Part shown: piece after piece, positions 1,327 to 24,767 of the stretch
Layout of the letters: each line of letters opens with the position of its first letter
Position numbering within the stretch: the first letter of the stretch is position 1
Source of the DNA: Treponema sp.
GTDB lineage: Bacteria; Spirochaetota; Spirochaetia; Treponematales; Breznakiellaceae
DNA length: 45,314 bases
Reading direction: 5' to 3'
Assembly: GCA_012517385.1 (NCBI GenBank)
Contig: JAAYUZ010000051.1
Location: 1 to 45,314, forward strand
Made by a program: the position numbers and the translations under genes
The notes under the pieces: model-generated
The model's database searches: none
What the model was told of the DNA's origin: nothing
What the model saw: only the letters and a program-made list of their open reading frames with translations

Positions 1327-1665
1327 TTAAAACTGCACAGAATAGAAAATTCCATCATTACTGTCCCAGTAGGTTTGTCCAGCGGTCTGATAAAAAAGGG
1401 CAAACTTAAGCAGAACACCGGGCGTAATATCAGATCTGGTCAAAATAGTAAATTCATCAGTTTCTGGATTTACCTGTCTGCTCCATTCACCATTAACATC
1501 GGTAAAATGTTGAAAGTTATCTATGGTATACCGCAGGCCAACCCGTTTTTCATAAGCTAAATTCTGAACCCCCGCAATAACCCGTAATTGTCCTGCCATA
1601 TTATGAGAATTGCCTTCCCGGAAATAATTAAGCTTTTCCATTGATATGAGCCAGACATTTTTCAT
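1327..1665 (-). CDS. Stand-alone CBM21-like starch/glycogen-binding protein
   Basis: A 112-residue protein that seems to be one carbohydrate-binding module of family 21 and nothing else. The diagnostic CBM21 run is visible: VQNLAYEKRVGLRYTIDNF near residues 33-51 (family pattern VxNLxFEKxVxVRYTxDNW), then FTD, a middle strand ending in FTI, and FALFYQTAGQTYWDSNDG near residues 89-106 (family pattern FAIxYxxxGQxYWDNNxG). CBM21 domains bind starch or glycogen and are best known from fungal glucoamylase and glycogen-targeting phosphatase subunits. There is no signal peptide or membrane segment, so it should be cytoplasmic. A GGAGG ribosome site stands about 7 bases before the ATG. It is divergent from the alpha-amylase gene. 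Binding to glycogen is inferred. Confidence 0.8.
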   Translation of the reverse strand: MKNVWLISMEKLNYFREGNSHNMAGQLRVIAGVQNLAYEKRVGLRYTIDNFQHFTDVNGEWSRQVNPETDEFTILTRSDITPGVLLKFALFYQTAGQTYWDSNDGIFYSVQF

Positions 1666-1805
1666 ATAAAGCCTCCATTATAACATAACAACCATGTAAA
1701 TCGGTAAAATTATATCACGTTTATTTGATTATGTATGATTATAATTTATTATTATATATATTCTTATATAAATCCAAACCTAAGTAAAACGGTTTATAAT
1801 TTTTG

Positions 1806-1857
1806 TTGACAGATTAGAATTCCGGGTTTACGATATCTCTATACGATATAGAATATC
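1806..1857 (+). promoter_or_regulatory. Candidate promoter and operator of the alpha-amylase gene
   Basis: A TTGACA -35 box (1806-1811) is followed by a 17-bp spacer and TACGAT (1829-1834) as -10. Starting in the -10 box is an interrupted inverted repeat, GATATCTCTATA ... TATAGAATATC (1832-1857, one-base bulge), placed where a repressor would block initiation. The rest of the 272-bp divergent region to the CBM21 gene is very AT-rich, including a TATAAT on the minus strand near 1720. The promoter is a pattern match only. Confidence 0.6.
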
Positions 1858-1937
1858 TTCATTGAATTTACTATCTCCATTTTATCTATATTCGTATTAA
1901 AATCATCCAGCCAAGATGAAAAGAACAGGAGGAAGTG

Positions 1938-3413
1938 ATGAAAAGGAGCGTAAAAAAACTCGGAATACTTGCTGTTGCAGCGAGTATTTCACTATTCTTC
2001 CTGGGTTGCAATACCCAAATTTTAAATCCCAGCGATACAACTGCTGAAGGAACAGCCCGTTCAATAACAGGAAAATCCGGGGTTATGATGCAGGGTTTCT
2101 ACTGGGATGTCCCCGCAGGAGGGACCTGGTATAATACTATGAAGAGTAAGGCCGCAGAGTTGGCTAATATGGCGGGCGGTTATGGAATAGATGCAATCTG
2201 GTTTCCGCCACCTTCCAAAGCCGACAATGGGGCTTACTCTATGGGTTATGATCCCTTCGATTACTATGATCTTGGCCAGTATAATCAGAAAGGATCTACA
2301 GAAACCCGTTTTGGATCCCAGGCTGAGTTAAAAAGTGCCATAGCGACCTTTAAGAGCTATGGAATTGCCAGCATGGCAGACATCGTATTGAATCACCGCT
2401 CCGGCGGAAACAGCGAATACAACCCTAAAACTGGTACAAATACCTGGACTGATTTTTCCGCCGTAGCTTCTGGCAAGAATAAATGGCACTGGGATTCATT
2501 CCATCCAAACAACTATTGTTCCAGCGATCCCGGCGCATTTGCCGGTTTCCCCGATGTCTGTTTTGCCTCCGGTTCTGCATATAACGATCAGAAAACCTGG
2601 ATGAACTGGCTGATGAGTACCACCAATGCGGGCTTCTCCCAGTGGCGTTTTGATTATGTAAAGGGACTTGAACCCTGGGTTATCAAGGATATGAAGGCTG
2701 CTACCGGAGGAGCCTTCTCGGTCGGTGAATACTGGGATGCAAACACTTCCACCCTGGACTGGTGGACCAATGCTGCAAATGCCTCTGCCTTTGACTTTGC
2801 CCTGTATTACACCCTTAAGGATATCTGTAATAATACCAGTGGCGGCGGCTATCTCCCCAACCTGGTAGATTACAGCAAATCCTTTGCTGCGAAAAATCCC
2901 CTGCGGGCAGTCACCTTTGTAGGTAACCATGATACGGATGAAATATACACCGATAAAATGATGGCCTATGCCTTTATCCTCACCTACCAGGGATACCCAA
3001 GTATCTGGTGGAAGGATTATTACAACTATGGGTTAAGCAACCTTGGCGGCCAATGGGGTAATGGTATTAAACAGCTGGTTTGGGTCCGGGGCAAACTGGC
3101 TGGCGGAGCACCCACAATTCAGAACCTAAAGACCAATGATGGAGATATGCTGATTTACGGAAGCTATGGGACCTCATCAAGCTCCCCGGGATACATTGTG
3201 ATCATTAACGACAATGCAACGAGCTGGAAAGGTTCCTGGGTACAAACCGGAAATGGCTACCTTAAGAATAAAAACCTTAAGGTGTATGCCTGGTATTCTC
3301 CAGTGAGCGGTCAGAATTATCAGCCCCAGACAAAATACTGTGACAGCAACGGCTGGGTAGAAGTATGGGCTCCACCACGGGGTTATGCGGTCTATTCTGT
3401 AGACGGTCTATAA
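1938..3413 (+). CDS. Alpha-amylase (GH13), probable lipoprotein
   Basis: A 491-residue glycoside hydrolase family 13 alpha-amylase that cuts internal alpha-1,4 bonds of starch-like glucans. The four conserved regions are present: DIVLNH (148-153), RFDYVKG with nucleophile D239, GEYWD with acid/base E264, and FVGNHDT with D332. The compact barrel and the GEYWD motif resemble the GH13_6/GH13_7 (plant/archaeal) type more than Bacillus enzymes. The N-terminus is a lipoprotein signal ending FLGC with Cys24, so it is probably anchored in a cell-envelope membrane. The ATG at 1938 is preferred over the GTG at 1935 because AGGAGG (1927-1932) is only 2 bases from the GTG but 5 from the ATG. It has its own terminator and probably forms a single-gene unit, divergent from the CBM21 gene. 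Confidence 0.93.
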   Translation: MKRSVKKLGILAVAASISLFFLGCNTQILNPSDTTAEGTARSITGKSGVMMQGFYWDVPAGGTWYNTMKSKAAELANMAGGYGIDAIWFPPPSKADNGAYSMGYDPFDYYDLGQYNQKGSTETRFGSQAELKSAIATFKSYGIASMADIVLNHRSGGNSEYNPKTGTNTWTDFSAVASGKNKWHWDSFHPNNYCSSDPGAFAGFPDVCFASGSAYNDQKTWMNWLMSTTNAGFSQWRFDYVKGLEPWVIKDMKAATGGAFSVGEYWDANTSTLDWWTNAANASAFDFALYYTLKDICNNTSGGGYLPNLVDYSKSFAAKNPLRAVTFVGNHDTDEIYTDKMMAYAFILTYQGYPSIWWKDYYNYGLSNLGGQWGNGIKQLVWVRGKLAGGAPTIQNLKTNDGDMLIYGSYGTSSSSPGYIVIINDNATSWKGSWVQTGNGYLKNKNLKVYAWYSPVSGQNYQPQTKYCDSNGWVEVWAPPRGYAVYSVDGL

Positions 3414-3500: not shown

Positions 3501-4598
3501 ATGAAAACATATACCAGTGGGGCAATAGCTCTAGTCTTTATGCTGATTTTACTTACTCATATTTCCTGCAATTCTAAAACTGAGATGCTCCCTAAACTGG
3601 CAGATGAGAACAACCTTGTTTTTACTTCTACCTATCAACTGGGGGGAATTAGTATTTCAGGGCAGCTTAGCATATCCAAAGGCACTCACCAGGGAACTGT
3701 AATGTTCGCGATAAAAAATAATACAAAAAAATCCATTACAATCCAATCTGATGCAATTACCATTAAAAGCCCCTCGGGTTATGTTAATTTTCCTTCAAAA
3801 AATTCAAATGGGGTATTTCACATACCAAAGAGTTCCTTAAAAACATGTACCCTTTATTTTCAAATCATTAACAATCCCATCCTTTATCAGAGATACGGCC
3901 TTCCTGGAGATATTCAGGATAAATACTTTATATCGGTCGATTTTATACTCAACGAAGATGGGAGCCCTGCTGTACCGGGAACCATGCAATTCACTATTGC
4001 TAAAGAACTATATCAAAAATACCTGGAACAATATGGAATAGAACATAAGCTGACAAGCTATGAACCAATTATAAACAGCAACCTTTTTATCGCCGAAGAA
4101 ACTGAATATATTATACAAAATAATCTGTTAAAAAAGGACCATCATGATGACGAAGATATACAAATCGAAGTTATACCCGAACCTCAAGTCATCCTATCTG
4201 GGAATGAACTTGTACTGGATCAAATTATCTGTAAATTCTCACCCTACAAGATCCAAGACACCTTTTACCTTTATGTGAAATTGATAAATCGATATCCTGA
4301 TCCAATCCAGTTCGATAGCTCCCAATTCAGTATTATTACAGACTCTCCGGAGCAAACTTTGAACAGCGATAAGTTCGATTTTACGGAGTTAAAACATGCC
4401 TTATCTCCGCTGAATACATCTACACCGAATCATGTCCTGGTCTTGAATCAGAACGAACGGGCTGATTTTACCATAGCATTTCAATATTCAGAAATAAATA
4501 ATCCCAAGAAGATTCAGATCATACCGAAGGGTATTAGCATCTATCAAAAAGAGTTACCCCTAATCGGAATACCCTTAGAGTATCAGGCAGTTCCCTAA
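3501..4598 (+). CDS. Unknown lipoprotein with two similar beta-rich halves
   Basis: A 365-residue exported protein that I do not recognise. Residues 1-23 are a signal peptide ending in a lipobox-like HISC with Cys23 as the likely lipidated residue. After it come two regions of similar length (about 35-170 and 225-360), each rich in beta-strand patterns (for example GTVMFAIKNNTKKSITIQSD and DTFYLYVKLINRYPDPIQFD), reminiscent of BsuPI-type or other Ig-like folds; this is inference. The middle (about 190-225) is acidic and may be a linker. It lies 30 bases after the amylase terminator. No strong ribosome site is visible; GGGG stands 7 bases before the ATG. Its TAA overlaps the TAG of the convergent gene on the other strand. 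Confidence 0.75.
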   Translation: MKTYTSGAIALVFMLILLTHISCNSKTEMLPKLADENNLVFTSTYQLGGISISGQLSISKGTHQGTVMFAIKNNTKKSITIQSDAITIKSPSGYVNFPSKNSNGVFHIPKSSLKTCTLYFQIINNPILYQRYGLPGDIQDKYFISVDFILNEDGSPAVPGTMQFTIAKELYQKYLEQYGIEHKLTSYEPIINSNLFIAEETEYIIQNNLLKKDHHDDEDIQIEVIPEPQVILSGNELVLDQIICKFSPYKIQDTFYLYVKLINRYPDPIQFDSSQFSIITDSPEQTLNSDKFDFTELKHALSPLNTSTPNHVLVLNQNERADFTIAFQYSEINNPKKIQIIPKGISIYQKELPLIGIPLEYQAVP

Positions 4599-23541: not shown

Positions 23542-24186
23542 CTATAAATCCAGCAGTGAAACCTTGCCGCCAAAATCATCATCGATAGAAACCGCTGCAT
23601 GGGGATCTGCTATCCATATCTGGTTGTCGATGACGAAGTTATACCGGTATTCTCTGGACCGTTTCAGCCGTACCGTGGCAGACCAGGTTTTGCCATCCCC
23701 TTCTGGTTTCAGGGGGATATCCATGCTGGACCACTGGTTAAAGTTACCCGATACCATGACCGTCGTTGCCCCGGGGGCTTCCAGGAAAAAACGGACGGTT
23801 ACCACATCGGAATTCCTGTTCGCATATAATAAGTAGCCCAGGGGAAGAAGCACCAGCAAGGCCGCCACAGCCGCCCAGGGAATAAAACGTTTGAACCTTC
23901 GCGACTGGATTTGGGAATGGAAACCTTGTTCGTCAGGTGCGATAGCCCGCTCAAGACCTGCCATGAGCCGCTCCGTATCGGGGACCTTTGTGCTTTCCAG
24001 CGGAATCTTCACCTGCGTACTAAGGCCCCCATCCCGGTCCAGCAGAGGAATAAGGGCCCCATACTGGCGCGAACAGGAACTGCATTCAGCTAAATGGGCC
24101 TTTAGGGCTTCCAGCTCAGCGGTAGTGATTGATTCCTTCTGTTCCCAGCTATTAAGCAGGGTGGCAACCTGTACACAATCCATCAT
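23542..24186 (-). CDS. Membrane anti-sigma factor with extracytoplasmic glycogen-binding domain
   Basis: A 214-residue single-pass protein. The N-terminal zinc-finger anti-sigma (ZAS) region has C4 and the HxxxCxxC motif H31/C35/C38. A transmembrane helix spans about 101-121. The C-terminal 85 residues read as an AMPK-type glycogen-binding/CBM48 domain: VTVRFFLEAPGATTVMVSGNFNQW, DGKTWSATVRLKRSREYRYNFVIDN and WIADP. Such domains bind alpha-glucans or have become protein-interaction modules. The design suggests that a glucan-like or envelope ligand outside the membrane controls release of the sigma factor at 24183. The genes overlap by 4 bases, as expected for a sigma/anti-sigma pair. Ligand binding is inference. 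Confidence 0.85.
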   Translation of the reverse strand: MMDCVQVATLLNSWEQKESITTAELEALKAHLAECSSCSRQYGALIPLLDRDGGLSTQVKIPLESTKVPDTERLMAGLERAIAPDEQGFHSQIQSRRFKRFIPWAAVAALLVLLPLGYLLYANRNSDVVTVRFFLEAPGATTVMVSGNFNQWSSMDIPLKPEGDGKTWSATVRLKRSREYRYNFVIDNQIWIADPHAAVSIDDDFGGKVSLLDL

Positions 24187-24767
24187 TCTATTATACCCTT
24201 CTTAAAGCCCTTTGGTTGTAAAAGTTCCTTCACTTTTTTTCTTCCCCGGAAAAGACGGGACTTTACATTTTCTTCACCTATAGAGAGGGTTTCTGCAATA
24301 TCACTGACAGGAAGGCCTTCAAAATAATAGAGAAAGAGTACCTCATAAAGATCATGGGGCAGCTTTCTGAGAACCCGGACCAATTCAGTCCTGGTTTCGG
24401 CCTGCATTGCATCATGTTCGGGGTTATTCTGATCCGGGTCTTCGGGATAAAAGATCTGGCTGGCTATATCCTGCTCTCTTTTTATACGGCCCCAGGAGGT
24501 TCTGAGCACATTGGAGGCAATCGCAAAAATCCAGGGTCCGAATTGTTTTCCCAACTTAAAGGTTGGCAGCGACCGGTATACTCTGATAAAGGTTTCCTGC
24601 ACCAGATCGTTTGCCCGATCCTCGTTTCCTGTCCTGGCAAGGCAGTATCGATAGAGGGAATCCTTATAGGTGTCTACAATAACACGGAAGGCATCATTGT
24701 CTCCCGCCAGCACATGCTGAATGGCAAGGAGGATTTTGTCTTCCCTGGTTCTATCTGTATAATTCAC
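24183..24767 (-). CDS. ECF-type RNA polymerase sigma factor
   Basis: A 194-residue sigma-70 family protein with only regions 2 and 4, the ECF layout. Region 2 (about 24-95) includes GDNDAFRVIVDTYKDSLYRYC and the core-binding DLVQETFIRVYRSLPTF. Region 4 (about 135-185) has LPHDLYEVLFLYYFEGLPVSDIAETLSI and the DNA-reading helix EENVKSRLFRGRKKV. It should be held by the anti-sigma factor encoded next and direct transcription of its own operon. The start is a GTG (24765-24767); the frame is closed by TAG just upstream and no Shine-Dalgarno is visible. A TATAGT (24776-24781) lies only 8 bases before the GTG, so the message could be leaderless. Confidence 0.92.
   Translation of the reverse strand: MNYTDRTREDKILLAIQHVLAGDNDAFRVIVDTYKDSLYRYCLARTGNEDRANDLVQETFIRVYRSLPTFKLGKQFGPWIFAIASNVLRTSWGRIKREQDIASQIFYPEDPDQNNPEHDAMQAETRTELVRVLRKLPHDLYEVLFLYYFEGLPVSDIAETLSIGEENVKSRLFRGRKKVKELLQPKGFKKGIIE

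Follow-up and report, generated by a model that had tools for sequence, protein, structure and literature searches.

A single-module CBM21 protein without an export leader, encoded beside an alpha-amylase gene in the spirochaete genus Gracilinema

The stretch of DNA analyzed here (hereafter, the window) comprises 45,314 nucleotides of contig JAAYUZ010000051.1, from a genome deposited as Treponema sp. (GCA_012517385.1). Near its start lie two divergently oriented genes, a short one encoding a leaderless protein and a longer one encoding a GH13 alpha-amylase (Table 1). The coordinates, strand and length of the shorter open reading frame were found to be exactly those of an earlier note on this DNA, which had described the product as a CBM21 domain constituting a complete cytoplasmic protein, divergent from an alpha-amylase. 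The divergent arrangement was confirmed. A fusion of the two genes was rejected, because they lie on opposite strands and both frames are intact.

Table 1. Positions of the CBM21 gene, its functional segments and the neighboring features in the window.
Feature	Position	Strand	Remarks
CBM21 gene	1327..1665	(-)	112-aa leaderless protein, one CBM21 module; ATG start
CBM21-profile-matched stretch (residues 19-110)	1336..1611	(-)	profile search
Site I loop, residues 99-108 (YWDSNDGIFY)	1342..1371	(-)	S102 and F107 replace the asparagines of the usual WDNN..N
Site II core, residues 35-40 (N-L-A-Y-E-K)	1546..1563	(-)	alignment to PTG N177-K182
Divergent intergenic region	1666..1934		amylase-proximal half conserved in three genomes, CBM21-proximal half not
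Shine-Dalgarno-like GGAGG	1672..1676	(-)	6 nt before the ATG; read from sequence
GH13 alpha-amylase	1935..3413	(+)	lipoprotein-type signal (read from sequence); divergent neighbor of the CBM21 gene

To establish the family of the protein, we compared it with the Pfam profiles using hmmscan. The match to PF03370 (CBM_21) scored 56.7 bits (E 3.3e-15), above the curated cut-off of 28.9, and no other Pfam family scored above its own cut-off. CBM53 (PF16760), with 17.7 bits against a cut-off of 27.6, was rejected as an alternative identity. This HMM search upholds the earlier claim of a CBM21 domain, and, as the profile spans residues 19-110 of 112, also the claim that one module makes up the whole protein. 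NCBIfam provided no name for the 112-residue protein. A phmmer search of the PDB returned five distinct sequences at E <=1, all of them CBM21 domains: PPP1R3C (two constructs), PPP1R3B, PPP1R3A and Rhizopus glucoamylase. Whole-genome searches detected one CBM21 in the source genome and none in 14 control genomes. The assignment to CBM21 is firm.

No signal peptide, lipobox or other export feature was seen in the 112 residues of the protein. Only 4 codons upstream of the ATG the frame is already closed, and its 116 open codons in total leave no room for a signal peptide. The open frames of all three copies in the genus span 116-121 codons, and the orthologues in two congeners (G002 and G003) start with GTG, while the window gene starts with ATG preceded by GGAGG. 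The intergenic region, translated in three frames, showed no leader-like stretch by reading. We therefore rejected the possibility that a leader was missed because the start was misassigned or the frame shifted: the frame is closed upstream, the intergenic region offers no leader, and both orthologues agree. Thus, the absence of a signal peptide, as proposed earlier, holds, and judging from its sequence the protein should reside in the cytoplasm.

An orthologue of equal length occupies the same place, between a response regulator and the same amylase, in two of the three Gracilinema congeners (G002 and G003), which rules out an artefact of a single species. In the third, G. caldarium H1 (G001), neither the CBM21 gene nor the amylase was found at the locus or in whole-genome searches; there the response regulator is followed by 11 bases and then by an MCP gene. 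In the window, the interval between the same two flanks contains, besides the CBM21 and amylase genes, genes for an unknown lipoprotein, a histidine kinase and a solute-binding protein. The dN/dS ratio (NG86) between G002 and G003 was 0.31 for CBM21, 0.11 for the amylase and 0.09 for the regulator; in the CBM21 comparisons with the window sequence dS was saturated. Neutral simulations at equal DNA divergence reached the observed identity in 0 of 1000 runs for window-G003, 0 of 1000 for window-G002 and 4 of 1000 for G003-G002. Neutral evolution is rejected, and the CBM21 gene is under purifying selection. Because the gene is conserved and under such selection, the open reading frame is not a chance frame. 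The gene is constrained, but less so than its neighbors: the identity between the window and G003 was 55% for CBM21, 92% for the amylase and 81% for the regulator. Overall, the CBM21 gene of the window is a real, conserved and somewhat unusual gene.

The conserved, amylase-side half of the intergenic region contains a TTGACA at 1806 (+). Upstream of this box, the sequence TAAAACGGTTTA at 1787-1800 (+) is conserved in three genomes, and we take it to resemble operators of the LacI family. On the other side of the CBM21 gene, between it and the response regulator, a stretch of 150 bases (1163-1312) contains three perfect inverted repeats with arms of 13-17 nt, two of which look like back-to-back terminators.

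To examine the predicted fold, we analyzed an AlphaFold2 model built from a 31-row alignment (mean pLDDT 92.3, pTM 0.84). The best Foldseek match of the model was the crystal structure of the PTG CBM21 domain with beta-cyclodextrin (E 2.4e-8), and VIA-align superimposed the two with a Z of 13.7 and 1.7 A over 100 residues; the model has the beta-sandwich typical of CBM21. A comparison with PPP1R3 and the Rhizopus starch-binding domain (SBD) had been proposed earlier, and the model resembles both. The CBM21 domains of PPP1R3C/PTG, PPP1R3B/GL and PPP1R3A/GM are the best solved matches (25-30% identity, Z 11.4-13.7), and the SBD of Rhizopus oryzae glucoamylase has the same fold (Z 12.5). However, the PPP1R3 proteins are eukaryotic and larger and carry a PP1-docking region outside the domain, which the window protein lacks, whereas the Rhizopus SBD is secreted and part of an enzyme, and has a polyN clamp at site I that is missing in the window protein. 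Z values of 9-12 were also obtained for the N-terminal early-set domains of GH13 enzymes and for a few other proteins. A non-CBM21 early-set identity was rejected because the fold is common to both but the sequence matches CBM21 only.

The earlier note regarded CBM21 as mostly fungal and animal, and a 2017 paper still called the family eukaryotic in the part available (PMC5571214). We scanned genome contigs for bacterial relatives. The single window sequence retrieved none, and alignment A1 (the three genus copies and four lipoproteins described below) retrieved 72 CBM21 loci in a pattern-based scan; this sample leans towards the patterns of the query. Pfam detected CBM_21 in all ten relatives submitted (eight of the 72 loci and two Brevinematales sequences). 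CBM53 exceeded its cut-off in L060, and other kinds of domain were above cut-off only in L079, a 1517-residue protein of Cohnella faecalis (L079:5932-10482) in which two CBM21 modules are combined with Big, VWA and TSP3 domains, an unusual architecture for CBM21. By reading, 68 of the 72 loci have a hydrophobic leader or lipobox, two (L066 and L107) are cut by the contig end before the protein start, and two are leaderless copies from the genus (L050 and L051). The hydropathy score alone was not decisive in this classification, as values of 1.9-2.1 arise within the domain itself in the leaderless copies, and L101 is low at its first ATG but has a leader further in. The typical stand-alone CBM21 protein in the scan has about 250 residues and mostly two modules. 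Those of Paenibacillus, Clostridia, Aquimarina and others (L055-L121) are likewise, with few exceptions among those read, devoid of a catalytic domain, but they are exported and mostly carry two modules in that length; the signal peptide or lipobox that marks them is absent from the window protein. Stand-alone bacterial CBM21 proteins are thus common, contrary to the earlier view, although the leaderless form is unusual among them. Since nearly all are exported, the oddity of the window protein is its missing leader and not its stand-alone module. In the parts of the literature searched, bacterial CBM21 proteins, common as they are in genomes, are hardly described, and we found no leaderless bacterial one there.

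Of the 58 genomes in the relatives set, three have CBM21, all of them members of this genus; among 392 genomes of the phylum it was found in 11, the source genome included. The nearest kin outside the genus are 181-residue lipoproteins with one CBM21, from four genomes (G119, G139, G143 and G173); the records for three of them (L052-L054) are titled Brevinematales or Spirochaetes bacterium. These Brevinematales-type lipoproteins (L005, L006, L019 and L041) are 47-49% identical to the window protein over its whole length, with alignments starting at window residue 1-2, and share its N-terminal strand and its site II residues. They differ by carrying about 69 additional residues of leader and linker and by keeping the asparagines of site I, both of which the window protein lacks. 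L005, scanned against NCBIfam, received no name. In a tree of 62 domains (31 of the 72 loci and 31 others), which was calculated from few columns with a quick method, the three genus copies group together (97) within a group that includes the four lipoproteins (98), inside otherwise exported relatives. From the sequences, and by parsimony, we infer that Gracilinema lost the leader. Another leaderless form, consisting of two CBM21 modules in about 220 residues, occurs in at least three of the four lipoprotein genomes (L029 in G119, L031 in G173 and L032 in G139), where it adjoins ordinary housekeeping genes; the fourth genome also gave a match of this kind.

According to the available part of the PTG study (PMC9582199), beta-cyclodextrin is held mainly at site II (N177, F180, E181, K182, Y203 and D214), and site I comprises R187, W193, Y196, C235, W246, N248 and N253. 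For the Rhizopus SBD, the binding of soluble glucans suffered most from mutations at site II, and the polyN clamp is part of site I (PMC3398936, seen in part). The site II residues of the window protein are N35, Y38, E39, K40, W61 and D70, the last of which lies near gaps in the alignment. Site II is therefore present, with W for Y at one place relative to PTG; its N, F/Y, E, K and D are common to the PPP1R3 domains, and Y38 has its counterpart in the site II tyrosine Y32 of Rhizopus. The site I positions are occupied by R45, F51, F54, A89 (the least sure in the alignment), W100, S102 and F107, so that the aromatics F51, F54 and W100 are kept and the asparagine clamp is absent, with S102 and F107 in its place. 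As site I varies within the CBM21 family, this absence does not exclude membership. In alignment A1, N35, Y38, K40, W61 and D70 are invariant in all seven sequences, and position 39 is E in the genus copies and D or S in the lipoproteins. At site I, the equivalent of N248 is N in 4/4 lipoproteins and S or P in the three leaderless copies, that of N253 is N in 4/4 lipoproteins and F in the leaderless copies, and that of W193 is W and F, respectively. Glucan binding through the conserved site II residues is predicted. The changes at N248 and N253 could mean that function was lost and not that the ligand changed.

The amylase and the CBM21 gene are present or absent together in all four genomes of the genus. 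Among the 392 phylum genomes, this type of amylase (E <=1e-100) occurs in 16, CBM21 in 11 and both in 7 (Fisher p 1.3e-8, kinship not corrected). However, the closest amylases outside the genus, 81-82% identical, belong to two genomes of the same order (G038 and G043) that gave no CBM21 match, which counts against a tight amylase-CBM21 unit; the same copies speak against an arrival of the amylase together with CBM21 from Brevinematales. No CBM21 gene lies beside the amylase in two Brevinematales amylase stretches (L152 and L153). G. caldarium H1, which has neither gene, is nevertheless reported to ferment starch in the part of the paper available (PMC3739177). Directly downstream of the amylase in the window is a 365-residue lipoprotein-like protein (3501-4598 (+)), which has no Pfam match and is absent from G002 and G003. 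In G043, G071 and G143 the same amylase is likewise followed by a protein of 334-372 residues whose leader is similar (L149, L151 and L153), so that the 365-residue protein may be a conserved partner of the amylase, to judge by size, leader and position only.

Our best reading, which we hold tentatively and at a little less than an even chance, is that an exported starch-binding lipoprotein has become a cytoplasmic alpha-1,4-glucan binder with one CBM21 immunoglobulin-like sandwich. The ancestor would have been a lipoprotein of the kind still found in Brevinematales, and in Gracilinema, beside an exported alpha-amylase, its leader and linker (about 69 residues) would have been lost. With these gone, the module should stay in the cytoplasm. 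There, site II would hold soluble glucan chains, such as glycogen or imported maltodextrins, and the polar residues of site I, which are associated with insoluble starch, would have been abandoned. Most simply, the protein might serve as a passive glycogen coat or a dextrin-binding protein; coating, storage and protection are conjectures about its purpose. A cytoplasmic glucan-binding role is a reasonable inference from these sequences. The source genome has genes for a GT5 glycogen synthase and a phosphorylase, so that soluble alpha-glucan can exist in the cell. G001 also has glycogen synthase-type and phosphorylase genes, though without a CBM21 protein, which indicates that the glycogen genes do not depend on CBM21 and counts against the reading.

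The rapid evolution of the gene and the unconserved CBM21-side half of the intergenic region speak against the cytoplasmic-binder reading, as they fit a weak or fading function. Together with the loss of site I residues, the weaker constraint relative to the neighbors and the absence of the gene from G001, they would suit a remnant in decay, that is, a former surface starch-binding lipoprotein that lost its leader and is drifting, still folding but with little or no function. We consider such decay unlikely, though a serious contender, since the frames are intact at 112 residues in all three genus copies, the neutral simulations hardly ever match the observed identities, and all seven sequences share five of the six site II residues. 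The exported neighbor amylase also argues against a cytoplasmic binder, as it points to an outside role. The protein might work outside the cell with the amylase, exported without an N-terminal signal, as the shared presence and absence of the two genes in the genus, their co-occurrence in the phylum and the export of the homologues would suggest. This is improbable given that the 112 residues show no export feature and that the genomes with the nearest amylases outside the genus gave no CBM21 match; moreover, we know of no signal-less export route for the CBM21 family, which counts further against it.

The earlier note had suggested a glycogen-targeting or glycogen-sensing adaptor; such a protein would, in the manner of PPP1R3, recruit an enzyme or a regulator to glycogen. 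In its favor, PPP1R3 glycogen-targeting subunits supply the nearest solved domains, the protein is cytoplasmic by sequence, and genes of a two-component system adjoin the CBM21 gene. However, the regulator and the kinase are adjacent also in G001, which has no CBM21 gene. In PTG the partner-docking RVxF and SALK motifs lie outside the CBM21 domain, and the isolated domain does not bind PP1, according to the available part of that study (PMC9582199). Nothing in the window protein extends past the domain to serve as a docking segment, an RVxF motif is absent from its 112 residues by reading, and no glycogen metabolism genes are adjacent to its gene. On these grounds we set the adaptor proposal aside as distinctly improbable.

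Under the reading of a cytoplasmic binder, the loss of the leader in one genus, with the soluble-glucan site kept and the granule site discarded, might form a bacterial, phosphatase-free parallel to the intracellular CBM21 domains of PPP1R3, with the leaderless Brevinematales pair as a second case; we regard this parallel as possible but somewhat doubtful. If the protein does bind glycogen inside the cell, it would be a natural glycogen binder of minimal size whose exported ancestor can be traced, and the leaderless protein and the lipoprotein would offer a clean comparison of the roles of sites I and II in CBM21.

Elsewhere in the window, the gene at 23542-24186 (-) encodes a 214-residue anti-sigma-like protein with a CBM48-like C-terminal part and is adjoined by an ECF sigma factor gene (24183-24767 (-)). 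Similar CBM48 matches were found in 234-codon frames in G002 and G003, and the anti-sigma-like protein could sense alpha-glucan outside the cell.
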